DNA from: Branchiostoma floridae
Lineage: Eukaryota; Chordata; Leptocardii; Amphioxiformes; Branchiostomatidae
Length of the DNA: 64,000 nt
Assembly (NCBI RefSeq): GCF_000003815.2
Contig: NC_049984.1
Span: 22,640,385 to 22,704,384 of the forward strand
Reading direction: 5' to 3'
Below are positions 30,801 through 58,500 of this stretch, one piece after another; position 1 is the stretch's first letter; each line of letters starts with the position of its first letter. The translations under genes were made by a program, and so were the position numbers. A model generated the notes under the pieces. The model ran no database searches, was not told the origin of the DNA, and was given only the letters and a program-made list of their open reading frames with translations.

Positions 30801-30917
30801 CCACTGTTCGAAACCGTTTTCGAACGTACCATTTGCAACGTTCGAAACTCCACTTGACAAGTTGTGTCTTTTCTTCGGTCGTTTTCGTCTACCTTTTAGT
30901 CGGGCTTACTTTCAATC

Positions 30918-32039
30918 ATGTCTCTTCTTGGTGGTCTGAAATTCCCCGAGGTTCTGTGGCGTATCGTTAATGATGACCAGTTTATGTCCATCGGCTGGTC
31001 GGAGGAAGGGACTAGCGTTGTTGTCCGTGAGCAGGACTTCATAGAAGAGGTTCTAGAGGCTGAGGACGAGAAGAAAGTATTCCAGACGAATTCTTTTGCC
31101 AGCTTCATCAGAAATCTCAATTTCTACGGCTTTGCCTGTCGCCGGATCGCCACAGAGAACGAGACGGCTATCCACTCGTGCTTCTGTCCGTACTTCCAGC
31201 GGGATCGCCCCGAGCTGCGGTCCCGTGTCTCCCGCGGACCCAACTCACGGCGATGGATGGCGCTTTTCGAGGCCGATGGAAAACCCAAAGAGGGTGTGAA
31301 GGGGTTATTGGAGGACCTGACAAACAACGGGAACAAGAGAAGAAGCTTGTTCACTAACGTGAAGCGGGATGAGGAGTTAGCAGCCAAGTTTGTGCGGATC
31401 GCTCCCAAACCCTCTGCTTCTGCTGCCCTCCTCCTCGGAGAACACAACATCGGCGACACGGTTCTCCGAGAACCGCCCATTCAACCCCGCCGCTTGTCTT
31501 CTCTTCGTCCTCCAAGCCCGTCACTCAAAAAGCTCGTCCACGACGCTCTTGAAATCCCGACGACGCCACCAATGATGGCACAGCCTGTGGTAATGATGCC
31601 CCAGCAACAACAACAGAGCTCGCAGCCGGCTCAAATCGTGTACATGTTGCCTATAGTTGTACCACAGAGTCCGGTAGAGATGGCCACAACTGCTGTTCAA
31701 ACCACGGCAACTTTATCGACAGCAATCAACTATTTCAACAGCAATGTCTTCACGCAGACAACAGTGCCAACTCAGAGAGATCGTCCCAAATCGTCAACAT
31801 CAAAGGAAGATTTTCCCACTACGGATAGACCAACCATTTCTGAAGGTCAACTCGCGAAGACGTCGACGTATGACGACGTCACGTTGCAGATGACGTGCGA
31901 GGATGACACCTCAACAGCTGCACCAGACAAGCTGACAGCCAGGCCCGGGAAAGTGGTCCGCAGAGCCACCAGAAACCAGGCGCGCACAGCCCGTGTCGTC
32001 ATGCAGTCCATCGCTGAGGAGAACGGTCAGGAACTATAG
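30918..32039 (+). CDS. Intronless HSF-domain transcription factor, HSFY/HSF5-like
   Basis: 373 residues in one exon. Residues about 7-75 match the HSF winged-helix DNA-binding domain: FPEVLWRIVNDDQFMSIGW, then FQTNSFASFIRNLNFYGF, the recognition-helix region. The wing that follows is extended and ends CFCPYFQRDRPELRSRVSR, as in HSFY-type proteins, rather than the short wing of HSF1/2/4. I see no HR-A/B leucine-zipper array, so trimerisation as in HSF1 is doubtful. The rest is low complexity, with MPQQQQQSSQ and QIVYMLPIVVPQSP. A basic C-terminus (RPGKVVRRATRNQARTARVV) may be a nuclear signal. Start: first ATG, directly before the domain. A retrocopy origin or a lancelet-specific paralogue is possible. 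Confidence 0.85.
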   Translation: MSLLGGLKFPEVLWRIVNDDQFMSIGWSEEGTSVVVREQDFIEEVLEAEDEKKVFQTNSFASFIRNLNFYGFACRRIATENETAIHSCFCPYFQRDRPELRSRVSRGPNSRRWMALFEADGKPKEGVKGLLEDLTNNGNKRRSLFTNVKRDEELAAKFVRIAPKPSASAALLLGEHNIGDTVLREPPIQPRRLSSLRPPSPSLKKLVHDALEIPTTPPMMAQPVVMMPQQQQQSSQPAQIVYMLPIVVPQSPVEMATTAVQTTATLSTAINYFNSNVFTQTTVPTQRDRPKSSTSKEDFPTTDRPTISEGQLAKTSTYDDVTLQMTCEDDTSTAAPDKLTARPGKVVRRATRNQARTARVVMQSIAEENGQEL

Positions 32040-32768: not shown

Positions 32769-33660
32769 TTATCCTGAAACAAAATAACTGTATATGGGAT
32801 GAGAGAATATTTCTGCAGCTACAAGACTGAGTTCCGATCCTTTCCACATTTCTTTTTGGGCTTGTCTCTTTACTCTGTAACATGTTCGTTCCTTCAGCCA
32901 TTGTTTAAAGAATTTGTTTTTCTCATCTACTTCCGCTTTGACTTCATCAGTCCACCAACCAGTTCTTTTCTTTCTCGGGTTACCCACAACAGTCATTCCT
33001 ACTATTTCATGTTGGATGTCTTGGAGGCAGGTTTTTAGGGAGTTCCAGTGTTTGTCTACATCATCTCCATTTATGTTGTTTTTCTCGTCATGGAGTCTCT
33101 CTTCGATGTTTTCTCTAACACTTTCAATTTTGACTCTTTTCCTCACTATTTTCTTTTCAGGTTTTGGTAAATGTATTTTCATTTTTCCTCTTATCACTCT
33201 GTGGTCTGAGTCAAGTGATACTGATGGAAAAGCTTTCACATCTCTGATAATGGATTTCTTGTTTGTAAGTATGAAGTCTATTTGTGACTTCTTATCATAT
33301 TGGTTAATACGAGAGTTATATCTGTACCATGTGTATTGGTGGCTTTCTTGATGATCAAAGTATGTGTTCATCACAGCAATGCTGTTTCTGAGACAAAAGT
33401 CAATGAGCATCTCCCCTTCCTCATGTCTCTCTTTCTAATTCACTCCGAACTTGCCAATCACTCCCTCTACTACATCACTACCAACATGACAGTTCAAGTC
33501 TCCCATGACAATAATGTCACTTTCATTTGGCAGACTGTCAAAAGTCCTCAAGTTGCTCAAAGAAGTGTACCTTTTCTTCTCGTGGTCTGCCTTGTTGTGG
33601 CGCATATGCCTGGACAAGTCATGTTTTATATATGAGTTTATGTATAGTGTTACTACAATG
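32769..33660 (-). pseudogene. Decayed non-LTR retrotransposon, endonuclease (EEP) domain fragment
   Basis: Minus-strand frames carry a DxNxHVG metal-site motif (VMGDLNCHVG), then IDFILTNKK and SLDSDHRV, the C-terminal motifs of exonuclease-endonuclease-phosphatase domains. The following TGWWTDEVKAEVDEKN is typical of the linker toward the reverse transcriptase in RTE/CFDP2-like elements. An in-frame TAG lies at 33432-33434 and a frame change near 33550-33560. No reverse transcriptase remains. It is a dead, truncated copy antisense to the neighbouring genes. Confidence 0.8.
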
Positions 33661-38284: not shown

Positions 38285-41200
38285 GTAAAACTTTATAATC
38301 CTGTGTCAGATTCTTCGTACGATAACAAATTGATTACGTTCCTGAGTCGCGAAGGTGCCATACAAGCTTTAGCTGTCTTGTTACGAAAGGACTGTCTTAG
38401 ATGCATGTCGGTGGTCGGTTCTGTCATAAACTGCTTGATAACTCTACGGCTTCAAAATCGTAAGACAAACTTCGTGACAGACAGACGTCATGATACTAAC
38501 TCGACTGCAATACAGACAAATTTGATTTCTTAAGCAATCCATCAACGTCATCTTAAATTATCAAACTACAACAAACGGTCCCACAACTTCAAAAAGCACA
38601 TCATGCAATAATCGAAATTTTTCTTTTGGTAGACTGCTTCGTTTGAAGAACAATGGAATGCGTCAAAAGTGACCCGTAGCAATATTGTTAAGCTGTTTAA
38701 GAGAGTCAATCATAACTCATAAATATCGACAGGATCGGTTAGCCATTTGTATGTTAAAGAATGAAATACTAGTAAATGAATACATTGCTGAATTTACCCG
38801 TACCGTCCGTTCTGTTGATCTTATCAATCTACGTGTGGGTTCTGTCACTAATGATTTTCTACTAACGGTTATGAATCTTATAATGCATGAATGAGTGGTT
38901 TATTCGCGTAAAATTTCGCAGCCCTTTTGGGCTGAAGACTGAAGTGCATCTCACGCACATCATTTGAAACTCGTTTTAACAGTACGATTCATTTAAATTA
39001 GATTAAATTAAACATCAAGATGACAGTATAAAAATTACAATGATAGCATAGCAATTACTACATGTCGTTTAACATTCTCAACAATGACTGTAACGGGTTG
39101 TTTTGGTAAGGGGGGTTCGACAGAGTGCTAGAGTTATTTTCTCAGAGTTTCTTAGTTGCGGTCGTGTTCTTGTAGGCACGTGCTGGGCAATGTAGTTCAT
39201 CGTAATGTTTTTTTTATTTTTTATTTTTTTCCTGTTCTACATGAAAGTTAAGATGTAGACGTAATTTCCAGCACCAAAATTGGACTTAGCAAAATTTTCG
39301 AGTGTCCATCTCTGGTCTTTGTCACTCTTGGTAATTCCTTGACAAAGACTGGAGCTGTCGTGTTTAATTTTTGTGTTGGAAACTATAGTTCAAAGTTTCT
39401 AAAGTAATTTTCACCTTGTTTCCTTGTTTTAAATCCTCTTGTTTTTTTTTTGACAGACGGCACGTATTCGGGTGGAGCAAGCTGCCGTCGTGCTCTTTGT
39501 AGCTTCATCCGCTCCCACCGGACCAGTATAGCGGCCGGTATTGCTATGGTCGCTATGGGACTCGCCCTTCTGGCGTTTATCAACATACGTCAACTGTCCA
39601 CCACTGTTGACGCCTTGAAGCGCGACCATGACGACATGCGCCAACTGTCCGCCACTGTTGACGCCTGGACGCGCGACCAAGACGACATGCGCCACTACCA
39701 AGGCGATATGCGCCAGCTGTCCACCCCTCTTGACACCTTGAAGCGCGACCAAGATGACATGCACCAACTGTCCACCACTGTTGACGCCTTGAAGCGCGAC
39801 CAAGACGACATACGCCAACTGTCCACCCCTCTTGACGCCTTGAAGCGCGACCAAGACGACATGCGCCAACTTTCCACCCCTCTTGACGCCTTGAAGCGAG
39901 ACCAAGACGACATGCGCCAACTGTCCACCCCTCTTGACGCCTTGAAGCGCGACCAAGACGACATGAGACGACATGTCTACCACTGTTGACGCCTTGAAGC
40001 GCGACCAAGGCGACATGCGCCAACTGTCCACCCCTCTTGACGCCTTGAAGCGCGACCAAGACGACATGAGGCAACTGTCCACCCCTCTTGACGCCTTGAA
40101 GCGCGACCAAGACAACATGCGCCAACTGTCCACCCCTCTTGACGCCTTGAAGCGCGACCAAGACGACATGCGCCAACTGTCCACCCCTCTTGACGCCTTG
40201 AAGCGCGACCAAGACAACATGCGCCAACTGTCCACCCCTCTTGACGCCTTGAAGCGCGACCAAGACGACATGCGCCAACTGTCCACCCCTCTTGACGCCT
40301 TGAAGCGCGGCCAAGACGACATACGCCAACTGTCCACCCCTCTTGACGCCTTGAAGCGCGACCAAGACGACATGAGCCAACTGTCTACCACTGTTGACGC
40401 CTTGAAGCGAGACCAAGGCGACATGCGCCAACTGTCCACCTCTCTTGACGCCTTCAAGCGCGGCCAAGACGACATGTCTACCACTCTTAACGCCTTGAAG
40501 CGCGACCAAGGCGACATGCGCCAACTGTCCACCCCTCTTAACGCCTTGAAGCGCGACCAAGATGACATGCGCCAACTGTCCACCCCTCTTGACGCCTTGA
40601 AGCGCGACCAAGACGACATGCGCCAACTGTCCACCCCTCTTGACGCCTTGAAGCGCGACCAAGACGACATGCGCCAACTGTCCACCCCTCTTGACGCCTT
40701 GAAGCGCGACCAAGACGACATGCGCCAACTGTCCACCCCTCTTGGCGCCTTGAAGCGCGACCAAGACGACATGCGCCAACTGTCCACCCCTCTTGACGCC
40801 TTGAAGCGCGACCAAGACGACATGCGCCAACTGTCCACCCCTCTTGACGCCTTGAAGCGCGACCAAGACGACATACGTCAACTGTCCACCCCTCTTGACG
40901 CCTTGAAGCGTGACCAAGACGACATGCGCCAACTGTCCACCCCTCTTGACGCCTTGAAGCGCGACCAAGACGACATGCGCCAACTGTCCACCACTGTTGA
41001 AGCCTTAAAACGCGACCAAGACGACATGCGCCAACTGTCCACCACTGATGACACCTTGAAGCGCGACCTGGACAAGGAGGGAAGCCGAACCGCCGCATTG
41101 GAGCAGCGTCTTCACGAGATGAGTAAGTACTAAGACGCCAGGTAGGCTGATGAAAACGTCATTACCAGGCTAATTTGTAACTATTGATCATTATTTCATT

Positions 41201-43132
41201 AAATGATACTATCAACCTTCCTGTGCCTGCAGGATTTCTAGCATGAATGGAGTACTGACATTTGTTAAGTACAATTGTGGCATTCCTTATCATCTTATTT
41301 ACCTCACCATTAATATCCTTACATGTGCATATGTGCCTGTTGTGATGTTTTACGTAGTGTTTCACTAACTCATACCATTTACTAACAAGAGTCTGAAAAC
41401 TCAAACCTGCTTGAAATATTTTGTTTTGTGATGGTGCGCATGGTGTGTTGTGGGGGTTGATATGGTTTGACGTTTGGAAAAATTATTCCATCATTGTTCT
41501 TAAGTTATATATCTACCTATGGTAAACAGTCAGATCCAAAACTACACCTTTCTGATGTCCTCACCATTTCATTTTTATTTCTTATTGTTACACCTGCACC
41601 TGGCACATACATTGTATCTCAATGTGTATATAATGGTTCACACCATACAGAGGTGACAGCGATGGTCACAGTTGCTCTTTTTTGCTCCTTGGAAGATTTT
41701 GACCAGAATGCCCCAGCAGTTCTAGAGCAAGCTGCTAGAGGGCCCAAACATACAACACTTCTTCCTTACACCACAAGCTATGTGCCACCAAAAAATCAAG
41801 ACCACAGCATATCCATGTCAAAAGATACAAAAATCCAAGTTCTGTTGCAGTACCAAGGTCACACACCAGGGGATCCAAAATTGACTTTGACCTTCGTCTT
41901 TCAAACACCTACCCAAATACCAAATATCATTACAATCCATCAACAGGTTCTAAAGTTATGCTGACCACAAATATGTGGAAACACAAACAGACACACACAC
42001 AGACACACCAAAAACTATACCTCCATTTTTCATGGAGGTAAATATCATCACAATCACACGTTCTGTTCTGGAGATATAGCACTGGAAACGACCCTTCCAC
42101 ACACTCCCATGCTACTGAAAACACAAAACAGATGTTACAGCTGCTAGCTGTCCCCAAGGAGGTTGAGACAGAGGGAATGAGGCCAGATCACTCCATAACA
42201 GGAAAAGGGGTGTAAATATTTTTTTTAAACGAACCACAAAACAACAGCAAACTTCTAATCTACTTAATAGCACAATAGGTCACACACTCTATCCCCATAG
42301 CAAAGGAAATCGCAATCCATCCAGAGGTTCTAAAGATATAGGTCCGGAATCACAAAGATCCCTACCAGAAACAGTACATGCTTTTTTCAAGCATGTAATT
42401 ATGCTGATATTGAATACAACTAATGGAAGATAGGGCCTTCTGATAGTCAGTGATGCAATTTCGGAACATTTTCAATGTCACCAATATCTTTCCCTACGCG
42501 TGTTGCTGACTCGCTGTTTTCCAGCATCTTGCCCTACAGGTTACACAATGTTCCGTGGAACCTGCTACAAGGCCTTCAACACACGGAAGACCTTCAGCGA
42601 TTCGGCCGCGGCCTGTGGTGAAGACGGCGGCACCCTCGCCATGCCCCGAGACGCTGAGACCGACGCCTTCCTGATCTCCCTGCACAGTGGCAAGAGGCCC
42701 TTCTGGTTCGGCCTACACGATCAGCGCGAAGAGGGAAGCTTTGAGTGGGTGGATGGTTCTGCACTTGGGACCTACAACTCCTGGTGTCCGGGAGAACCAA
42801 ACAACTATCGGGGCAGGGAAGATTGCGTTCTTCATAATTCTGAAGACGAGTGGAACGACGCCAAATGCAACAGGAAGTATCGCTTCATCTGCCAGACTGT
42901 CCCAGGTACTGGCTATATTACATAATGTCCCATTTCCTGATAAAATGCCACAACTTGATATTCATCGGACTAATCTCATGAGACCATGTGTGATGCTCTT
43001 GTTAAACCATGTAAAACACATCACTCCACATCTCATTCCTGCCATTTCTGTTCATGTTTTCCAGGACGTCCATTGGCGACTGGCGGAACTCTCACCACCA
43101 ATGTGCTGCGGCTTTCCGACCATCCGCAGTAA
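38209..43132 (+). CDS. Type II membrane C-type lectin with 17-residue stalk repeats (frame-broken)
   Basis: Proposed exons: 38209-38284, 39457-41122, 42525-42905, 43065-43132, joined in phase 1 throughout. The order is a short cytoplasmic tail, one transmembrane helix (SIAAGIAMVAMGLALLAFIN), a stalk of about 29 near-identical 17-residue repeats, a C-type lectin domain with EPN and WND calcium/sugar motifs, and a short tail. EPN predicts mannose-type ligand preference (family knowledge). Total 2191 coding bases, which is not a multiple of three. A 10-bp duplication at 39956-39975 shifts the frame in the stalk. Without those ten bases the length is 727 codons. Either this allele is null, the assembly is wrong, or splicing removes the lesion. 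The first exon is the least certain. Confidence 0.8.
39457..41122 (+). CDS. C-type lectin transmembrane and stalk exon
   Basis: The acceptor is ttttttgacag and the donor gtaagt. Basic residues (CRRALCSFIRSHRT) precede the membrane helix, setting type II topology. The stalk consensus is RQLSTPLDALKRDQDDM. Frame 1 runs to a stop at 39989 and the second frame runs from 39973 to the donor. The two overlap at the 10-bp duplication. Confidence 0.88.
39588..41075 (+). repeat. 51-bp coding tandem array, about 29 units
   Basis: Units are 51 bp (17 codons). Two are shortened to 14 codons (starting STT), and one short 7-codon insert reads RHYQGDM. Most units are identical or differ at one codon. Early and late units keep STTVDAL, while central units have STPLDAL. 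Because 51 is divisible by three, several other frames stay open on both strands. Confidence 0.95.
39956..39975 (+). other. 10-bp tandem duplication that shifts the lectin frame
   Basis: AGACGACATG occurs twice back to back. The comparable unit junction near 40470 has GACGACATGTCTACC with a single copy. The extra ten bases lead to a TGA at 39987-39989. Confidence 0.9.
42525..42905 (+). CDS. C-type lectin domain exon
   Basis: A full lectin domain in one exon. It starts SCPTGYTMFRGTCYKAF. FWFGLHDQREEGSFEWVDG precedes the sugar-binding loop, with WCPGEPNNYRGREDCV, then EWNDAKCNRKYRFICQ. The canonical Cys pairs, EPN and WND motifs are present, so calcium-dependent sugar binding is plausible. The acceptor is ttttccag and the donor gtactg, phase 1 to phase 1. 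Confidence 0.93.
43065..43132 (+). CDS. C-type lectin terminal exon
   Basis: It begins after ttttccag, phase 1. It encodes RPLATGGTLTTNVLRLSDHP and stops with TAA at 43130-43132. Polyadenylation candidates are AATAAA at 43307 and near 43526. Confidence 0.65.
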
Positions 43133-45791: not shown

Positions 45792-48700
45792 TTACGTTTT
45801 GGTTTTTACTTTTTTAGTTGTCCTGATGTCCTGCTCAAAGACAGGCCCTCTCGCCTGAAACAAAACTTTCCTCACTTTGTAGTCGACTCCTATAACTTGA
45901 TCTTCTTTTCGCACAAAGCGGAAATTTTCTCCTTTGTTAGAAAGAGGTTGCCCAAGGAGCGTGCCATCATTTTGTTTTGATCCCAAGTCATAGAATCTGG
46001 CTTTGTTACCAAACAAGTGTAAAGTCTCCACAAAGTGGGTGAAGCATGTAATATCTAACCCACCATGCTCCAGAGAACAGTCTGCATATAGTAACAGGTC
46101 ATGTAGAATGTTCCAGTACCATAGAGTGGCGGGGAGGGGGGTGCCACAAGTTAGTATAGCTTCGAGTGAACCTCTGAAGGGAGCGTTTCCGCATGGACAG
46201 TCTACCTCAACAAAGGGATTCCCTGTGGCGTCTTGTACTAAACCATTCGTACTAAAAATACGCACAAGTCTGGAGATTGAATTCTCAAGTTTGTCCTTTT
46301 TTACGTTTCGCTTTCTTTCCTTTTTAACTTCAATAAGGGAATTGCCAAAAACACGTCTCATTTCATCATAGTTTCTAATAGCTGATTTAAGAATACTCCT
46401 ACAAAAGCCAAATCTGTCAACAAAGAAGCAGTCTCTAAGAATTTCAAACCTCTTTGCTTCGTCCGGATCCGTCGTATTTACCCAAGAAAATATCTGTTTT
46501 TCAAGACCTAGGTACGTCTTTACGGTATTTTCGAACTGAGCAATATCAGGAGGACTCGAGCTTTCCAGCCAGTCCAGAATTTTGTTGCCTTCAAAAATTG
46601 TCCTATTCAAGACTTTTATTTTCTCTGACCAAGTTTGGATTTCAAGGTTGAGTTTAATCGCGTAGTGACATTTATCTAATGTGACTTTGATTGGCCTTAG
46701 TTCCTTGCTTAAGTAAAATCTGTTCCAGACACCAGCTTTGAGGTTATTTTCTATGACAGCTACAGCATCTGATAGAGCTGCACATTGTTTTTCCAATAAC
46801 GACGAAGATTGGTCATGGCTTGACGTAAGATCTACCGTTTGTCCTACAGCTTTCCTGAGCAGACGTGCTATGGCTGTAGCCTGATACTTTGCACTCACGT
46901 CAACATAAATCGCGCGGTGAGCTAAAGCCCGCATGGATTCCTCGTGTTGATTCTTGTAGTTGTTTACAAACTTCAAACTACTAAGAGACAAAACACTTTT
47001 AAGAACTCCTAGATCCCCTAGCAAGTCGTGCCAGTCATTACGAGCAAATTCTACAATATCGAATTCTTTACTTTCTCGGGGCAGTCCTAGCATTGCATCG
47101 AAGTATGTGTTTGTACAAGAAGATGTTTCCATGTACCGGTAGTGCATTAAGAGCAGTTTTCTTACGACCTTTGTAGCTTTCTGTATGTTACTCCAGTAGT
47201 TTTGTAGAAGCTCTCTTGACTCGTGTATCAGGAGACAACACCGCATTGACCGTAACTGGAGGTCTTCTGAACTGTCAAGGCACTTGACATCCTTACACTG
47301 CTGTAAGTGATGCAGTAGCTTCTTAAAATATGAAGCATCAAAATATGTAGCACCGTCAAATCGCATGCGATTCTGGAATTGCGGATGAAGAAACCTCCCT
47401 ACAATATTAACCATTCTTCCCAACCCTCTCCAGTATTCCTTCTGCATAGCATTTCGTGCTGGATTTGGCTTTAAGAGATTTTCCAAATTCTCGAATGTTT
47501 CTTCGCTTATATACGTCACGATGTTGGAATAGAAGGAAAACGGCATGTCAGAATAGTTGACATGGTCTAGTTTTCTGCTTTGGATAAGTCTCTTGTAAAT
47601 CGAGGAAGCGGTGTTCTCTAGAGACGCAGCGATATGGTCAAAATCACATGAATCTTTAGCTGTATTTTGGTCCTCCGCCTCAGCTATACATGTAGCCTGT
47701 TCCCAAGACAAATTATCCGCTATGTCCACTAATAAGGCAACCGGTACGTTGCCGTCGAACAGACACGGCAGTAGAGTGTTGTCAAGAAAGCTCACATGGT
47801 CCAGAAGGCGACAGCACAGATTCTGAATAGAACCAGGTCTAAAGAATAGCATCATCTGAGCGTGAAGGAAAAAGGAAGCCTCCTCACACGCGCCCCATTG
47901 GCAGAGAAACTCAGTGGACTTGTTAAAGAATGCGGATGAGCTGGCAATGGGAACTAACGTTTGATACTGTGCAACATTCAGGGCTGCATAATGGATATGT
48001 GCCATCAAAAACTCTGCCTTAACCCTAGAGATGTTCCTATGGCTGGGTACGTATGTGGAATACATCAAGGCATTTTCCAAATGGTTGATTCTCAAGGATT
48101 CGTTCATTTCTGCCACAACTACCTCCTGCACTATCCTGTTCACACTGAAAGCACACGGCTTGAAGGCGTGGCAAGGAGAGGCCAGGGAAAATCTCTCCAG
48201 GACTGATACCATTTTCTTCGTATCTAAGTTATCCAATTGCCGAGAAGTACTGAAAAGTTTTGAAAAGGTTTTACTGTTGGGTATGGGGCAGGGGATACAG
48301 TCAGGGCCCAAAAATGATGTCGTGTTCAAAAGGTTTTCGGCGTTACTGGACAACTGTGATACGTACTGAAAAGTGATGTCAAACGCTCGTCGTATCGTTC
48401 TGTTTGTGAATTGTACGATATCCCCTTCATCCAGCAAGTCTACCTTCTCAGTCGCGTCCCCCCTTACGTATTTGTCATGATATTCTTTAACTGAGCAGCC
48501 AGTTTCTTCTATATATGCATACGCAAACTGCAAGGCAAGCGGGTGGTGTCCCAAAGACCGACTTAGACCTTTGATTTCCCTTCTATCCTCTTTACTGCTA
48601 GGTCTAACCGTTTTGTTGAACAGTGCCTGGGCTTCAGTCTCGCTGAATGGAGAAAGACTGACCACTGCGATACGCTCCATATCAAGTCTTTGGTATTCGT

Positions 48701-49153
48701 TAGAAGTCAGTAGAACATGACTGGTTTCTGTGAGGGTGTGGGGGAGTAAGGACTCTAAATCTTTCATGGTCTCCCTCACTGCCTCGTCAGCTACTAAGAT
48801 CCAATGCTTGGAATTTGTCAAATGGTTCTTTAAGTGGGATTTTACAGACTCACAATTTAGATCATCTCTACGTTGCGCAGATACTGGAATCTCCCTCCCA
48901 CTAACAAACACGCCGTACTGGCTGATACTGGCACACAGGTCGCCCTTACTCGCTAACCTGACCCAGAACACCCCACCAGGGTACCTCTCCACACGTCTGT
49001 GCCCGTACTCAATGGCCAGAGACGTCTTCCCGACACCGCCCAGTCCCTTGATGAGGCAGGTCTGGTTCTCCTGAAGACAGGCGTCGATCCTCTCGAAGAC
49101 ATCTTCCCGTCCCACGAACGTCTTGAGACGACGGGGGAACACTGACAGTGTTT
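45792..49153 (-). CDS. NB-ARC NTPase exon with long helical C-terminus
   Basis: The acceptor on the minus strand is tttctgttacag, and the stop is at 45792-45794. 1119 residues in one exon. It opens ETLSVFPRRLKTFVGREDVF, the usual entry to an NB-ARC, then P-loop GLGGVGKTSLA and GHHPLALQFA. The sensor-1-like TSR position reads TSN and the winged-helix His position reads Asn (SVNRIVQ). An unspliced frame upstream to 49196 adds 14 unrelated residues that I treat as intron. Confidence 0.93.
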
Positions 49154-51389
49154 CTGTAACAGAAATAGGCTGTCCGTTTAAATAACGACAATGCACTTTA
49201 TTTCATATCCGTTACTACCATGGCAATTTAATGCATCATATTAGATAGAAACTTTAAAAAAAAAGAGAAAAGCTATGCCATATTACATCTATATCTACAG
49301 TCTCTTCCGTCTTCTTGAAACGTGTGCAGGCAGAGTTGATTTTTTATCACATTTATTTAGCCCTGAAAAGTATTTTAGGACAGAAAACGTGATAGTTACA
49401 AAAGTTGTGATAACTTGTTTTTAACAGTCTCTATTAGTGAAATAATGTAATAGCACCCCACTATCACATGTAATAGCACCCCACTATCACATTATTTACT
49501 AGTAAATGATATATAGATGGTCTCTATTACTGAAATAATGTGATAGCACCCCACTATCACATTATTTCACTAGTAAGAATGGTAAGAGATAAAATTGTAT
49601 CTACTGGTTAAATAATCGGATATAATTGTGTCAATCATTATCACATGTGAAAGTAGTTAAAACGTTTTTCGACAAAAACACTTTTTGGAACTAAAATAAT
49701 GTGATAAATATACCGGGCTGTGCAGAGTTTTGCTGACGCATCAGGATCTAACCTAACAGTGTACATTATACGTCCGATTGCAAGGAATACCCGGAATTCT
49801 ACAGGAATTCTAATTTCTGCAATGCGCAATTTTGGAAGATGTTTGGAATGAAGTAAACAATACTCACCGTGTATTCTGGCTCCATCCGGAACCATGAAAA
49901 CCCAGACACAGATCATCAAACTGGTCAGGACGATGCCTAAAGCTCCAACTCCATTCATAGTCCATCTTCTCACCTCTGCAAAAGTACAAGTTACAAGAAT
50001 ATCTTGATTATGACAATGTTGGTAAGAATAGTTTCTAAATTTCATCCTTCCTCTTAATCGGTGTGGTTGCCCGTCGTCAAGTAAGTCGACGAACATTATT
50101 TGACGAAGGCTTGTAACTACGCGATATAAGGTATTTGGAAACTAAGGTAACGCCTTTACTTATACTGTTTGACCTTTATTACAATATAAGATACACACAA
50201 GCGAACAAGTCGTACTTGAGTAAAAACTCAAGACTGGTACACGTATGCTGTGGACGAGAAAAATGCACGAATAGACGAGAAAGAACAATTGTAGGACGGC
50301 AAAAGACTACAGTCAAACCCGTACTAGTGACAAAGATAATTCTTCCAATTGGCACAAGCATTAGGAAAATCTATAGTATAGTGGTCTGTTTTATGCCGTG
50401 CGCATGCAGTCCTCAACTTAACATTGAATCCGAAAATTTGGAGGTTCTTGTTTTACATGTTTTCAAGAGTCAGTGATCAAAGATTATTCGTGCATGTTTG
50501 AAGGGGCTAGCCGTTAATTTACAAACCCCAAGGACGCTTTCCGAGGCTCTTCTTCTTGATCGTCCCCTTCTCCACTTCTGCCTGCAGCCGTGCCCGAGAC
50601 TCTAACAGCTGTCTCACCAGGTGTGCATATGGGACTTCTTTAAGGCTTTTGACAAAGTCTTCGAAACCGTCATACGGCAAGTCTGTGGGGCAGCAAACAA
50701 AGGACGTGTGGGTAAATAAAGAGACTCTTTTCACACAACCTTTGGTTCATTCTCACCAACTTTTCGGTGACCGTCTGTTCCAGGGTAATCTTGCTGGTTC
50801 ACATTGTACTGCAGATATAGGTGTCGCTGCTTACAGTTACAGATGCGGTCACAGACGTTAAGTATTTGTATATGTACAGTGCTAGTGACTACTTTATACT
50901 TGAAGTGGTTTACAGGATGTTGCGGCGTCTGAGGCTGAACTTTTATCCAGTATTTATACCAGAATCCTTTGAGTTCAGTTAAGTTAAGACAGCATTGTTT
51001 GCCGACAAAGAGGAGACAATTATTGTCCAGAAGGGGGTGGATGATTTGCAAGCGTATAATTGTTCTTTTATGCTTCATTATATGACAAGCTAACTTCCCT
51101 GACAATTATCTACTGTTGGCCTTAAATTGGCGAGAACAATTCTCTCGCATATACACATTGAAGTCATCAAACCACAAAACCGTAGAAAGTGCGCAAACGT
51201 ACCCAGTAGTTTGTCTAGCAGTGCCTTGGTGCCTGCGAATGGCCCGTCGTTTTTCGCCTTGGCCCGGATGAACCCCGGGTCTCCATCCCTCCAGTTGACC
51301 GTGCTGTACCGCAGAACCAGGCCCGGGTTCATGTCACGGGCAATGTCGTCATAGCAGTCCAGGATAGCTTGACAGTGTAGAGGGTCCAT
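45792..51389 (-). CDS. CARD - transmembrane - NB-ARC NTPase protein, four exons
   Basis: Minus-strand exons: 51389-51203, 50682-50527, 49975-49868, 49153-45792. All junctions are phase 1, giving 1270 residues. Residues 1-110 look like a CARD (LLDKLLD, GFEDFVKSLKEVPYAHLVRQ). About 123-145 is a hydrophobic helix. From 160 a STAND/NB-ARC NTPase follows: Walker A GLGGVGKT (187-194), Walker B-like WILVADEA (268-275), LLTSN (298-302), GHHPLAL (352-358) and a winged-helix FSVNRIVQEVV (486-496). The last 750 residues look helical, without repeats I can name. CARD and NB-ARC proteins form oligomeric signalling platforms in death and immune pathways (family knowledge). A membrane helix between them is unusual. 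The exon 2 donor (gtttgt) is weak, so CARD and NB-ARC could be separate genes. No symbol assigned. Confidence 0.6.
49434..49575. repeat. Perfect stem-loops GAAATAATGTGATAG/CACCCCA loop
   Basis: 49532-49568 is a perfect 15-bp stem with loop CACCCCA. A diverged, partly doubled copy at 49437-49496 has the same CACCCCA loops. It lies in the intron between the TM and NB-ARC exons. Confidence 0.85.
49868..49975 (-). CDS. Transmembrane exon of the CARD/NB-ARC gene
   Basis: 108 bases between a minus-strand acceptor cttttgcag and donor gtgagt, phase 1 to phase 1. It encodes VRRWTMNGVGALGIVLTSLM followed by ICVWVFMVP. The hydrophobic run of about 23 residues is bounded by Arg on one side and Asp on the other. 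Splice phases fit both neighbouring exons. Confidence 0.7.
50527..50682 (-). CDS. CARD second half exon
   Basis: The minus acceptor is ctgccccacag. It encodes LPYDGFEDFVKSLKEVPYAH, then LVRQLLESRARLQAEVEKG and a basic tail KKKSLGKRPW. The proposed donor at 50526 is gtttgt. If it is not used, translation adds Leu and stops at 50519. Confidence 0.75.
50795..50875. repeat. GGTTCACATTGTACTGCAG repeat (copy 3, one arm)
   Basis: It matches the left arm of 28228-28413 (CTGGTTCACATTGTACTGCA, GTGTCGCTGCTTACAG). The right arm is not seen. It lies in the intron between the two CARD exons. Confidence 0.55.
51203..51389 (-). CDS. CARD first half exon with start codon
   Basis: The ATG at 51387-51389 opens MDPLHCQAILDCYDDIARDM. 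The exon ends KALLDKLL plus one base before gtacgt. An in-frame upstream ATG at 51494 would add 35 residues. The later start was chosen because the CARD begins there. Confidence 0.75.
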
Positions 51390-51719
51390 GTTGGCTACAG
51401 AACTTGGAAAGTTTTCTCTGTTGTACTTTGATTCTTCGGTAAAGGTTACAACACGGTGGAAAGTCCCGATGACACAATCGTCACAAACAGCCAATCACCT
51501 GCACCTATCTGTCAGGCGTGATCGGACTTAGAACTTCCCGAATGTGTATCGGGCACGTTCAGTCTCATTATGTACACATTCGTGACCTATCATCACGGAT
51601 TGGAAGCAAATGTTGACGTGACATTTCGACGTGCGGGTAACGTTAACTTTAGGTGAGGTGATGTCATTAAACTGCAAAGCATGGCCGATTAAAGCTGTAG
51701 CCCGACCTAGAATTTACGA

Positions 51720-51905
51720 ATTATGATTATTATGATTATTATGATTATTACGATTATTATGATTATTATGATTATTATTTGATTATTATGATTATTATGA
51801 TTATTATGATTATTATGATTATTATGATTATTATGATTATTATGATTATTATGATTATTATGATTATTATGATTATTATGATTATTATGATTATTATGAT
51901 TATTA
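51720..51905. repeat. ATGATTATT microsatellite
   Basis: A 9-bp repeat, nearly perfect, about 20 units, upstream of the CARD gene. The open frames it creates (IIM or NNH repeats) are not genes. Confidence 0.95.
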
Positions 51906-51909
51906 TAGT

Positions 51910-54410
51910 ACATTCTAAGACACCGTGCGGATGTTTGTTGCCATTGTTTAGAATTAATTGTTAAGTTTTATAATTATATATCAAGGACATTTGATACTTA
52001 AGAAATAATTCTAACACTGTTTCAACTTTATAAATATTTCCCTGGTCCTGTAAAACTTTGGAAATATTCATGGTGTGGAATTGGATACTTCTAATGGTTT
52101 CTAAATAATGATAACAGCATTCTACCATTATTTACCATTTTCTACCATTTTTTGTAAATGGTTCAGTGGGCTGGGAAGATAGCAATTCACACATCCTTGC
52201 AAAGTATGGTTGGGTGCCATGCAACAATGGCCCAACACAAAGGATCCACCAGTACCCAGCAGTGAAATCTAAAAAATATACAGATGCAACAATAGGGCTT
52301 TCTTTTATGGGGGCAATAAACTAATTTTACCATTTGGCAAGGTTTACAAATATTTGTAAATATTTGTAAATGTGAAATAATAACACAGATGTTTCACAAT
52401 TATTCTAAATAAAGATATTTTTGTACAGTTACTTTCAAAATGTTTCAAAAATATTCAAAGGAATTCAAATACATGAGTATTTTCTTAGTCAATTTTTTGA
52501 AAAAAATTTAACTGTTGTGGCTCAGATATTCTTTTACTCAAAATAATTCAGATTAATTACAAATATCACCTAAAAAAACCCTCATGGTGACTTGGAATCG
52601 ACTCTATGATTATTATCATTGTTCTGATTGTTGTGATTGTTGTGATTGTTATGATTGTTATGATTGTTATGATTATTATGATTGTTGTGATTATTGAGAT
52701 TATTATGATTATTATGATTGTTGTGATTATTGAGATTATTGAGATTATTTTGATTATTATGATTATTATGATTATTATGATCGTCCCGGTGAGCATCATT
52801 ATTATCGGCAATGTGACTGATGTTGCAGCGTCCGTTGATACAGGGTACAACAAAATAGGTTTTCGCGGAACACAAGACACCGAACGAACAAAGAAAAGCA
52901 GAATGCATTGTTATCTGGCATGTCCTAATGTGTGCACAACAATTCGACAGGGGCCATAAAACAATCGTCTGCCTGAGATAGATCGGCGGTTGTACCGAGC
53001 ACTATTTGGAAACCAGGCGTGCCCCGCCCACCGTGACCCAGGAAGTACTTCTTGAACCCGGAAGTGTATGTTTGTACTATTTGTGCAGAGATTCTGGCGG
53101 GGAGTTTGATGCAAACATCGCGCTAGAAACGCTTCAAAACACCCGGTTAGGGTACGTTCGGTTCTTTTCAGTTTCACTAGGCTTTAATTTATTATAGCTA
53201 GGCATATACTTTTGATAAATTTGATTATTTAGATGTATTTTTATGGCGTAAAGGCCGTATACATCCAGATATTTTCGTCGTGTTGTCATAATTTTTTTTT
53301 AGAGCGCAGCTGCAGTGTTACACAACATTGGGTCTTGATAAATATGTACAAAAATCTGCGAAGTATTTGTGTAAAACTTCGCATTGGAGAAACAAAATTG
53401 ACGAAAAACACAACTTGTAAATCCCGTTTTGGTAAGCTAAATATATTTATATGGTCATATTTTTGCTCTGTCCTGATTGATACGATTTTACATAAATTAG
53501 GTCCTACCAGGATATTGGAGCTCGAAGGGGTTATGTAAAAATTATACATAACGAAATTCTATCCAAAAACTGCTATAATGAGCATTGGCGTCTTAACCTG
53601 ACTTGTGTGTGTTAATTATTTTACAACAATCACATTCCCAGCCAGATAATGCTTGATTATATTAGTATTAGTAATATGTGTTTTTTTCAGGTCTTATATT
53701 TATAAACAATTTGTTTAAACCTTTGCAATTGCTCTAAACATAGCTGCATTATAAATGCATGTGTAAGTAACGTTACACACAGAGTTGTTATGTTTGTGCC
53801 AGCATTGAAATATCTTATGTAACATCATACATGAATGTTTTTTTTTGGTCAACAAATGACTCTCACTTCACGTAAAGTAATAGCTCCACTGTAATGGGAC
53901 CTAGGGAAAGATGGCCACCATATTAGCACTGTAATAATGTGATCAAATACGAGCGTTTGCAATGATGTCACAGTGACACAGTGGTAGGGAAAAGGCAATT
54001 GTGTTTGGCAAAAGATTGATTTACATATTACCCAGTAATTTGGTCTGCTAATATTTTCATCAATTTTTAACCAATCTACTGACATCCTGGTAGGCACCAG
54101 CCGTTGAATACCCCGGATAGAAACAACAACAGCGATCGCTTGTATGGGGAAAGAGGCTACAGTCCAGGATTGTCTCCAACTTTAAACTCATCGTTTGGGT
54201 GCCCTTGTTGTCAGTTTTTGAGTTAAATCTGTCAAAATTTCAAATGTAATGTTACAAAAATACACTTTCATCAGTTACAAAACTTGCATGTGATGAAGTT
54301 CAGATATTTTGGATGGATGGGGGAACAAGCAAAATTCCAATCTTGGAGGGAGGGACAGTTCTTGGAGACAGCCCAGCTTCAATCACAATCTTAAATAACA
54401 ATTGATTGCA
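51910..54410. other. Intergenic DNA between the CARD and CUEDC2 genes
   Basis: AT-rich sequence with a second ATGATTATT/TGATTGTTG microsatellite at about 52605-52785. No gene seen. Promoters of the two divergent genes probably lie at its edges, but no TATA box or clear motif could be assigned. Confidence 0.5.
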
Positions 54411-55530: not shown

Positions 55531-58500
55531 GTAAGTACCGGAAGTTACGTTGATGTAGGTTAGACATCCAGGTAATAAGATACACCAAAAAGTAGTTACT
55601 CAAGCAACTGGATATGGTTTTGGAAACGGTCAGACGTTTCGGATAGAATCCACTATCCTTTGTCAGTGACACTGAAGAGTACCGAAAGTTGTTTAATCTT
55701 TCCGTCGCGTGTAAGGTCGTAAGTTTAGCAGTGACTTCTGAATGCTAACTCTAACCCTGTGGCCTTGAACCAGCTGTCAGCCGATGAGAGAAGCAGCTTT
55801 ACCTAAAGAAAACATTACGGCAATTCACTGATTGGCTGACAGCTGGTTAGATGCCATGGCCACAATAGTGGAAACCCCAGCCCAGTTGAGCATAGCTTCC
55901 ACAAGGTGCACTGGCCATGAACGAGGCTCTGGGAATGCTTAACACTGTAAAGTGTAACAGACATTTTGTCTTTCATTGTGTTACTACATGTACTAGGGCT
56001 GTGTGCCTAATACCAGCACCTGTACCTGTAATTTGTTGTTAAGGTACAGGTCCAGACCTAAACATCTAGTGTACCAGTACCTGTATCTGAACAAACTAAA
56101 GCACTAGACTAATGGACACCAGTTTTTAAGACTGACAAAGATAAGTAAATCTCAAATCATCCCTGACGATTGTGTTGACATTGAAGTTCAAAATGAGGAA
56201 AACTTGCAAAACTTCTTTTGAGATTGAATCTGAGATTCAAATATGTAAATTCTCATACAAAAGATGACAATTTATCATTAAAAAGACAGTTGGTTACATG
56301 TATACAAATATACATACATATAATTGATCAAACTTGTTTTGGTACAGGTATACGACTTACATGATATTTCTTTACTCGGTATATATTTCTTTAGGTATTT
56401 CTTTCAGTACTGTATTAATAGTTTCAAATCGCAATCTCTGACATACTGGAAAAGTAAGTGATATACACCATGTACATTCTTCTCACAGTGAACAAATGTT
56501 TCCTCTCTTGAGTAGCTGTGTAGATGAGATTGTGCTGCAGTACATGACTGGAGTGCTAGAGGACCTCGGGACACCAGACTCCTCAGAGGATAGCTTTGAT
56601 GTGGACCAGTTTGTAGAGATGATGGAGGCCTACCAACCAGGGTTTGGGCAAATCGACAGTGTCCAAGTGTGCGAGTGGATGTTCAACTTGGCTGGAAAGC
56701 TGGCACAGGCAAGGGAAAAGGGTAAGATGCTCGAAAAATGTCTTCCTCTTAAAATCTGCTCTTAAAAATAGTTTGGAATCTTAAAACATGTTGGTCTGTA
56801 CCCTTTTAATCACATTACCATGTTTCTTTTCACAGAAAATACTCCACCACCATCTAGAAGTCTACTGATGTTCAACAAAGCCTTTGAAAACAAAACTGTC
56901 AACAAAAAGACCAGAGGCGGCCCAGGATAACACAAGGCTAGAGAAGGAAAGAAGCAGTCAAAATCAGGTGGATGTTTGGAATTTATTTCTTTATTGATGA
57001 TAAATCATACAATCTCTGTTCTGAAAATTTGTCACTTACTCATCACTAACTCAATTCCTTGGCAAATGATGCTTTAAAACAAGCATTACTGCAATTTTCA
57101 ATACAGTTTAAACGTCTTGTACTTGAAACCCATGATTTTTTATTCGAAGGATTTTAGCAGAAGCTACAATAGAACTGACTGTAGTAAGGTAAAGGAAGGT
57201 GTTTTCAAGCAGGTAGACATAGTCACATACCAACTACTACAGTCAAACCTGTATTAGGGGCCACCTCTACAGAGGGGCCACCTGTCCATAGTGGCCACTT
57301 TTTGTCGGTCCCTTGGGTATTTTATCTACAAGTTGCCACCTCTATACAGAGGCCACCTGTCTATAGTGGCCAAATTTGTCCGATCCCTTGAGTGGCCGCT
57401 ATAGACAGGTTTGACTGTACATGCATGATCATGATACCACCTTTAAAAAGAACAAGAAATATTGTCATGCCATTAAGTACCAAGACCATCAACCATGCCA
57501 TCAAGTACCAAGGGATTGATGTACTAGAAGAAAAGTAGTATTTCCCTAATTATGGAACTTGTTGACATGAAGAAAAGTAGAGACAACCTCACTAGAAAGC
57601 TTTAAACTACAGTCAGATGTGCAAAGGTTATTACTATTAGGTGTGACTAGCCTGGGTACCTTGGTACCATCCAGGTAGTAGTTCACTCCTATGTTCGCTT
57701 CTGATACCCGTCTGGGGAACTGTATATTTAAACCTTTTAGTGGTGACGTCAGTTAATGAAGGAATTGATGAATACTAGTATGAGGAATGGGTTCTACAGC
57801 GCTCGTTCAAACAGGTGTTTCAACAGGGATCAGTTACCCTTTCAAGTTTCTTGTGACTGTTAGGGAGCTGGATCAGAGGGTAGGGATCAATCAGCACAGA
57901 TACAGAAAGTTCTGTCATTGCATTCATATGTGTGAAAGGGCTATTACCTACTGGACTACCACATCCACAGGACAAGCCAGAAGAAGCAGAGGAGGAAGAC
58001 AGAGAGAGTCTAGATGAGTTTGAGGATCAGGTGCGACTCCTGTGTGAGATGTTCCCCTCCTGTGCTAGTCTGGAGGCTAAACACTGCCTGGTGGTCGCTA
58101 ACGGTGACATGGAGCATGCTGTACAACTGGTGATGGAGAGACAACAGTCCGGGGAGTGTATGCAGGTATGGGGTAGGGGGGTAGTGCTGCGTACCTAAAG
58201 CTAAGGGCACAACCCCCCGTACGTGCAAATACTTGCTGTCTATGTGCCAAAATGTGGGCAATCTTTGGGGATTCGTAAGTGGTAAGTACCCCCTCCATAC
58301 AAACTCGTAGGGAATCCGACGGATTTGGGAGCACGCAGACACGCCATAGAACTTTTCATGCAGGCAAAACTTTGTGTGCCATCGGGTTGCGGATTTGCCC
58401 CCTGTACGTGCCAGTAAGGGTGATGCGCCTGCCCTGTACAGCCTGAACATTTTCAAAAATACATGGCGGACGTGGCCTCCCAAAAAAACGTACGGACAAA

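Follow-up and report, generated by a model that had tools for sequence, protein, structure and literature searches.

The DNA studied here is a 64,000-nt stretch of contig C6 of the lancelet Branchiostoma floridae (the window), and on its minus strand lies a four-exon gene whose joined reading frame specifies, in this order, a CARD, one hydrophobic helix, a STAND NTPase, and a long tail. At the level of genomic sequence this architecture is real, is repeated over a gene family, and is under constraint. The evidence comprises the exon anatomy, the class of the CARD, the STAND core, and the conservation of both exon order and helix hydrophobicity. The interpretation that we favor, and regard as fairly probable, is that a single gene specifies a single-pass, membrane-anchored STAND receptor whose CARD would seed signaling at the membrane.

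Results

Exon structure of the gene

The first-pass annotation of the window had proposed four minus-strand exons joined in phase 1 throughout, and its coordinates, strand, and phases are correct: each of the three introns is GT-AG, each junction is in phase 1, and the joined frame is 1270 amino acids (aa) long (Table 1). Exon 4 needs the upstream exons, because it has no in-frame Met before its Walker A motif. Within the 1373 bp that separate exons 2 and 4, no phase 1-1 open exon other than exon 3 has strong splice sites. Scored with a simple vertebrate-derived matrix, its donor ranks in the top 0.18% of GTs, ahead of every other donor in the gene, and its acceptor in the top 0.43% on the same strand; with a site matrix of the same kind, a comparable exon arose in 0 of 1000 first-order simulated introns. 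Elsewhere in the window, no paralogous exons were found at E<1.

Domains of the predicted protein

The CARD-like domain suspected at the N terminus was borne out when a CARD profile was run. Pfam CARD_2 matches the N-terminal 114 aa at aa 5-88, across the exon 1/2 junction (E 1.6e-5; 25.3 bits, slightly short of the curated cut-off of 28.2), and it matches all nine family copies that have exons 1 and 2 (best E 3.8e-8), with one CARD in each. The best match of the CARD part in the PDB is CARD1 of RIG-I (E 3.5e-4), and a CARD profile built from the nine copies again places RIG-I best (E 6.1e-6). A search of the 1270-aa protein with PF00619 reported no match (limit E 10, with HMMER filters dropping most above E 0.1), and none of the 149 places listed in a genome search with the same profile lies at the exons of this gene. 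By sequence, this CARD belongs with those of RIG-I, MDA5, and MAVS (CARD_2), not with that of APAF1. Separately, 10 of the 27 CARD_2 matches in the genome cluster at G000:C4:23363687-23424413 (L015, L016, L018, L020, L024, L025, L030, L032, L035, and L036), possibly the RLR/IPS1 cluster of which excerpts of PMC4565553 give a description.

The STAND NTPase called by the first-pass annotation is also recognized by profiles. NF040586, a bacterial STAND-TPR model of NCBIfam, matches residues 6-355 of exon 4 (E 2.3e-45; 155.4 bits, under its equivalog cut-off of 300), DUF7779 scores over its Pfam cut-off, and NB-ARC scores just under its own. The exon holds a P-loop core with Walker A and a Walker B-like sequence (ILVADE), together with a winged-helix region, to which the DUF7779 match presumably corresponds. 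In alignment A1, which has 10 rows, one being the outgroup L067, NB-ARC is matched in nine rows and DUF7779 in all 10, and GLGGVGKT[ST] is kept in 8/8 family rows that cover Walker A. A family STAND profile found AfsR (8.2e-9) and the plant receptor MLA13 (0.0046) in the PDB. An AlphaFold2 model based on A1 has a mean pLDDT of 54.8, with the P-loop alpha/beta core (exon-4 residues 11-150) mostly at 60-85 and a mainly helical tail at low confidence; only the NTPase core is usable, and a single-sequence model (mean pLDDT 38.3) was discarded. By eye, a Cys module (C-x4-C ... CC, A1 columns about 660-765) occurs once in the C6 protein and about three times in the copies C19p, C236, and C12, suggesting that the tail varies in repeat number between copies.

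Profile searches of the 1270 aa reported no match to WD40, to LRR, or to the DExD/H helicase and C-terminal RNA-binding domain of RIG-I-like receptors. For the strict NLR arrangement (NACHT-LRR), NACHT appeared only at E 0.072, and PADLOC gave weak matches only (E 0.015 and 0.039).

Between the CARD and the NTPase lies the sole strong hydrophobic helix of the 1270 aa, which is not C-terminal. Its hydropathy is the maximum of the protein, the highest KD19 in exon 4 being only 1.63. This one helix is hydrophobic and long enough to span a membrane once, and its insertion is predicted.

A family with conserved exon order

A protein search of the whole genome (513 Mb in 431 contigs) gave at least 44 matches, at the C6 gene, at 11 further loci, and at three distant NB-ARC places; the count is a lower bound, 37 of 46 first-look candidates having been scored. 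Twelve loci were studied, namely C6 (the gene in the window), C8, C11a-d, C12, C15, C17, C19p, C19m, and C236, each with flanks and small extra stretches, and C17 minus part of intron 2. All four exons occur in the same order, collinear in phase, at nine loci (C6 and 8 of the 11 others), and the C6 gene is not a lone oddity. Exon 1 could be identified at 9/12 loci, with 187 nt and a GT donor in phase 1 every time; exon 2, identified at 10/12, is 156 nt long in all 10, and its donor is AAG/GT, at the same place, in the same phase, and with the same exon length, in 9/9 other loci that have it. At all 12 loci the STAND exon is preceded by a hydrophobic exon in phase 1-1, 96-120 nt long. This hydrophobic exon is homologous by sequence in 10 of them (C6 counted), and in C12 and C15 it was chosen by place, phase, and hydrophobicity; since hydrophobicity served to pick the latter two exons, theirs is no independent evidence. 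The equal exon order at other loci rules out a chance join of unrelated exons.

The copies differ in their state of preservation. C6, C17, and C236 are open throughout, and C19p is open as far as the contig end. Stops interrupt exon 4 in C11a, C11b, and C19m, and a frame break interrupts it in C11d; C11c has two stops in exon 3, with exons 1, 2, and 4 open. Exon 4 of C15 is short, and the CARD exons of C8 are degraded. Exon 1 was not found at C19m, nor were the CARD exons of C12 in about 4.4 kb before its exon 4. A tree of the STAND part groups the C6 gene with both C19 copies (support 100/100). These two copies lie head to head at a contig end (G000:C19:17104125-17116508), and one of them reaches it.

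Selection on the exons was gauged by the ratio of nonsynonymous to synonymous substitution (dN/dS; Nei-Gojobori, pS up to 0.74). The six pairs among C6, C17, C19p, and C236 give a dN/dS of 0.20-0.38 in exon 1, 0.08-0.34 in exon 2, and 0.26-0.34 in exon 4; for exon 1 of C6 it is 0.33 against C19p, 0.20 against C17, and 0.38 against C236. Four pairs of damaged C11 copies give 0.15-0.29, 0.18-0.72, and 0.18-0.80 for the same three exons. As for the helix, KD19 of exon 3 lies at 1.96-2.72 at 12/12 loci (C11c counted with its stops), and when neutral drift was simulated from five exon 3 copies to 30-50% identity, KD19 stayed at 1.96 or higher in 6-28% of runs. The case for helix hydrophobicity having been kept despite sequence drift is good without being overwhelming, and it is limited because the copies are related, representing about four old lineages when C12 and C15 are set aside. 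Splice-site strength, the equivalents at other loci, and the drift simulation together rule out a spurious helix exon.

Table 1. Positions in the window of the CARD-STAND gene, its domains, and a candidate promoter site
Feature	Position	Strand	Description
Exon 1	51203..51389	-	187 nt; aa 1-62 and one further base, with the start codon and the N-terminal two thirds of the CARD
Exon 2	50527..50682	-	156 nt, phase 1-1; CARD end and basic linker, aa 63-114
Exon 3	49868..49975	-	108 nt, phase 1-1; aa 115-150, containing the lone hydrophobic helix
Predicted membrane helix, about aa 123-143	49890..49952	-	Hydropathy peak aa 124-142, KD19 2.36
Exon 4	45792..49153	-	3362 nt with stop TAA; STAND NTPase, winged-helix region, long tail, aa 151-1270
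NB-ARC, aa 171-350	48555..49094	-	Pfam PF00931, E 1e-4, 22.1 bits vs. cut-off 23.5
Walker A GLGGVGKTS, aa 187-195	49020..49046	-	Read from sequence
DUF7779, aa 416-503	48096..48359	-	Pfam PF25000, E 4.2e-6, 27.3 bits vs. cut-off 27
GGGACTTTCC, candidate kappa-B-type site	51458..51467	-	78 bp upstream of start codon

Predicted orientation in the membrane

Within either 15 or 25 residues of the helix, K+R are more numerous before it than after it in all 10 copies with exon 2, and at 10/12 loci net charge is higher on its N side, with C15 showing no difference and C12 the reverse. Under the positive-inside rule, the basic residues before the helix predict a cytosolic CARD, and with one spanning helix a cytosolic CARD would place the STAND part across the membrane. 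The protein could then be a type II receptor, with its STAND NTPase outside (luminal or extracellular) and a RIG-I/MAVS-type CARD as cytosolic tail, a possibility that we hold only tentatively and think doubtful. If it were true, an intracellular switch domain would have turned ectodomain, and extracellular nucleotide might contribute to the signal.

Cysteines and glycosylation sequons bear on this possibility. Exon 4 has 23 conserved cysteine columns, and over seven copies the invariant cysteines number 8/9 in the NTPase part versus 6/18 in the tail. The conserved sequons include an N-x-T before the P-loop (8/8), and four CARD parts are without any sequon. NxS/T sequons total 103 over seven copies versus 55 in reversed sequence (29 versus 27 in 15 long frames taken as an initial control), and columns with a sequon in at least four rows number nine versus three reversed. 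A better set of controls, drawn from NB-ARC/NACHT and other frames of this genome that are presumed to be cytosolic, comprises the five frames L067 and L071-L074; it also shows an excess (35 sequons versus 21 reversed), and because of this the argument from sequon enrichment to a luminal STAND part was dropped. Two further comparisons weigh against the type II orientation: observed/expected sequon ratios of the family (1.21-2.20) overlap those of the presumed cytosolic frames (0.92-1.92; the five controls and L021), and the cysteine content of seven copies (2.5-3.2%) falls within that of the five control frames (1.6-3.6%).

Promoter and genomic surroundings

GGGACTTTCC, which we take to be a textbook kappa-B site, occurs upstream of the gene, the one exact occurrence in the window against 0.09 expected; the looser GGGRNWYYCC occurs eight times (expected 4.0). 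Among nine promoters (174-400 bp each), the exact GGGACTTTCC is found in two, C6 and C19p (at -77), GGGACTTTTT in that of C236, and a looser match in that of C15, with none in the remaining five. The site is a hint only, because it was spotted after the fact. Farther out, some 0.3-0.5 kb ahead of the start codon, lies a long tandem repeat of AATAATCAT type (about 51720-51910).

On one side of the CARD-STAND gene, a plus-strand frame at 42434-42922 holds a C-type lectin domain. The plus-strand interval 39408-42925 reads as a hydrophobic helix, a stalk made up of numerous, nearly identical repeats of 17 residues (MRQLSTPLDALKRDQDD), and then this domain, and the lectin frame and the stalk frames from 39408 are probably one gene; the stalk-repeat DNA also gives long open frames on the opposite strand. 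On the other side, two plus-strand frames at 56442-58195 look CUE-domain-like (CUEDC2-like) by eye, with no supporting Pfam match. The window further contains a plus-strand frame with an HSF-type DNA-binding domain (30900-32036, E 1.4e-16) and, on the minus strand at 32772-33434, a weak endonuclease-reverse transcriptase match (E 0.001, under cut-off) that is probably a retroelement remnant.

Discussion

In vertebrates, sensor (RIG-I, MDA5) and membrane platform (MAVS) are separate proteins that contact each other by their CARDs, and NTPases with a CARD, APAF1 among them, are soluble. In the receptor that we propose, the helix would hold an N-terminal RIG-I/MAVS-type CARD at a membrane, the NB-ARC module would serve as a nucleotide-dependent switch, and the long, fast-evolving tail would be the likely sensor. 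When the tail met its ligand, the STAND part would oligomerize in the plane of the membrane and gather several CARDs, which could then seed CARD filaments, made either of its own CARD or of lancelet MAVS/IPS1 or another CARD adaptor, and these filaments would lead to NF-kappa-B/IRF signaling. One chain would do the job of RIG-I plus MAVS. We infer the oligomerization, the seeding by CARDs, the downstream pathway, and the immune role from what is known of the protein families concerned.

Several observations weigh against this proposal. The first-pass annotation had envisaged a ligand-gated, oligomerizing NTPase; the kept Walker A agrees with that, whereas the sensor-1 Arg and the winged-helix His that are usual in STAND proteins are replaced in the C6 copy (LLTSNEY, FSVNRIVQ), and gating and oligomerization would have to be supposed. 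The outgroup L067 and the copies C11c and C11d have the His. The predicted orientation, moreover, would put switch and CARD on opposite sides of the membrane, which would complicate the signal path. At the DNA level, the exon 2 donor (GGG/GTTTGT) is weak, ranking within the best 17% of GTs by the vertebrate-derived matrix, and read-through past it meets a stop two codons on (50521-50519), so that a CARD-only product with its end at 50519 is possible. The dN/dS of exon 3 reaches 0.35-1.02 over the six pairs and 0.47-1.66 over the four C11 pairs; such high values indicate that its sequence is little constrained. Finally, 8 of the 12 loci are damaged, incomplete, or without recognizable CARD exons, and the family may be in decay.

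The weak exon 2 donor and the stop beyond it also suit an alternative that we judge unlikely, in which the locus makes two or more products: a CARD-only decoy or regulator from exons 1-2, and a separate helix-STAND protein that would start at the in-frame Met121 of exon 3 or in the preceding intron. An AATAAA at 50180, in the intron after exon 2, and the in-frame Met itself fit this scheme, as do C8 and C12, which keep exons 3 and 4 without a recognizable intact CARD. However, the scheme has to contend with four exons collinear in phase at nine loci, with the AAG/GT donor in all nine other loci that have exon 2, and with an exon 4 that offers no in-frame Met ahead of Walker A. Of the 11 other loci, C11a-d have a Met where C6 has Met121 and seven (C17, C19p, C19m, C236, C8, C12, and C15) do not, and a helix-STAND gene started there is unsupported as a rule of the family.

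Still less probable, in our estimation, is that exon 3 is mostly skipped, leaving a soluble CARD-STAND protein of the Apaf-J/APAF1 sort and the helix form as a minor isoform. Skipping would keep the frame, because exon 3 is symmetric (phase 1-1); C11c, with its two stops confined to exon 3, would be left open, and in most pairs dN/dS is higher for exon 3 than for any other exon. The exon nonetheless carries the strongest donor of the gene, has an equivalent at every one of the 12 loci, and has kept its hydrophobicity.

The helix could also be the effector itself. The effector modules of STAND proteins usually sit beside the NTPase, as this helix does, and the transmembrane (TM) effectors of some are thought to perforate membranes on oligomerization; a STAND oligomer might likewise bundle the helices and perforate a membrane, with the CARD as an accessory. 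We think this improbable, since one rather featureless helix with charge asymmetry resembles an anchor and the CARD exons are under purifying selection, even though sea-anemone NLRs with three to five N-terminal TM segments are on record (excerpts of PMC5094078).

How the proposed receptor relates to known proteins can be stated half by half. A CARD plus NB-ARC had been likened to the plan of APAF1, which likewise carries both in one chain. The likeness extends to the NTPase half only, where the NB-ARC match is just under the PF00931 cut-off by itself and clear against NF040586; the CARD is CARD_2. APAF1 has a PF00619-class CARD, WD40 repeats, and no membrane helix, and membership in its family was rejected, with neither a PF00619 CARD nor a WD40 match reported in the 1270 aa. 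An apparently intronless open frame of 1280 aa elsewhere in the genome (L071, G000:C7:13040700-13044900) does read as APAF1, on the basis of a CARD by PF00619, an NB-ARC match, and WD40-like repeats by eye. Closer at hand is BbeApaf-J of Branchiostoma belcheri, another lancelet protein with CARD(s), a central NB-ARC, and a C-terminal region without defined domains, which in Apaf-1-deficient human cells raised p65 phosphorylation (PMC11747288). It differs, on a comparison by description only, in having two CARDs, and the excerpts of PMC11747288 make no mention of a membrane helix.

The companion claim, that a CARD plus a TM helix is the plan of MAVS, fits the class of the CARD (CARD_2 in 9/9 copies) and fails for the helix, which is not C-terminal. 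Lancelet MAVS/IPS1 shares an N-terminal CARD of the RLR/IPS1 class and one membrane helix, and differs in its proline-rich middle, its C-terminal helix, and its lack of an NTPase, as far as excerpts of PMC4565553 describe it; in the C6 protein the helix directly follows the CARD, and the STAND module follows the helix. Lancelet RIG-I CARDs bind the CARD of lancelet IPS1 in vitro, whereas those of MDA5 do not do so significantly (excerpts of PMC4565553).

The CARD-TM-NB-ARC order, which the first-pass annotation took to be undescribed, was not found in the literature searched, though an earlier mention is possible, notably in subscription journals. Membrane-bound NLR-like proteins have been reported in sea anemones (PMC5094078) and sponges (PMC12909245), and for that reason an NLR in a membrane is by itself no novelty. 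Both kinds are predicted to lie in a membrane, the former having N-terminal TM segments and the latter TM segments; the CARD-TM-NB-ARC order was not found in the excerpts of either paper. A further relative in design is a set of Crassostrea virginica receptors with DED and TRADD-N domains, which combine in a single chain a TM helix, a Death-fold domain, and, in some members, a STAND NTPase. Their order is Cys-rich ectodomain - TM - DED - TRADD-N - variable end, with the Death-fold and STAND parts intracellular, according to excerpts of PMC8195603.

The lancelet lineage has been reported to have the fastest exon shuffling among animals (PMC4284660, in part). If our interpretation is true, the family would represent a one-protein version of the RIG-I/MAVS relay, built by phase 1-1 exons. 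It would raise the question of whether a STAND oligomer can directly seed CARD filaments on a membrane, and whether a STAND NTPase may work across a membrane from its signaling domain.

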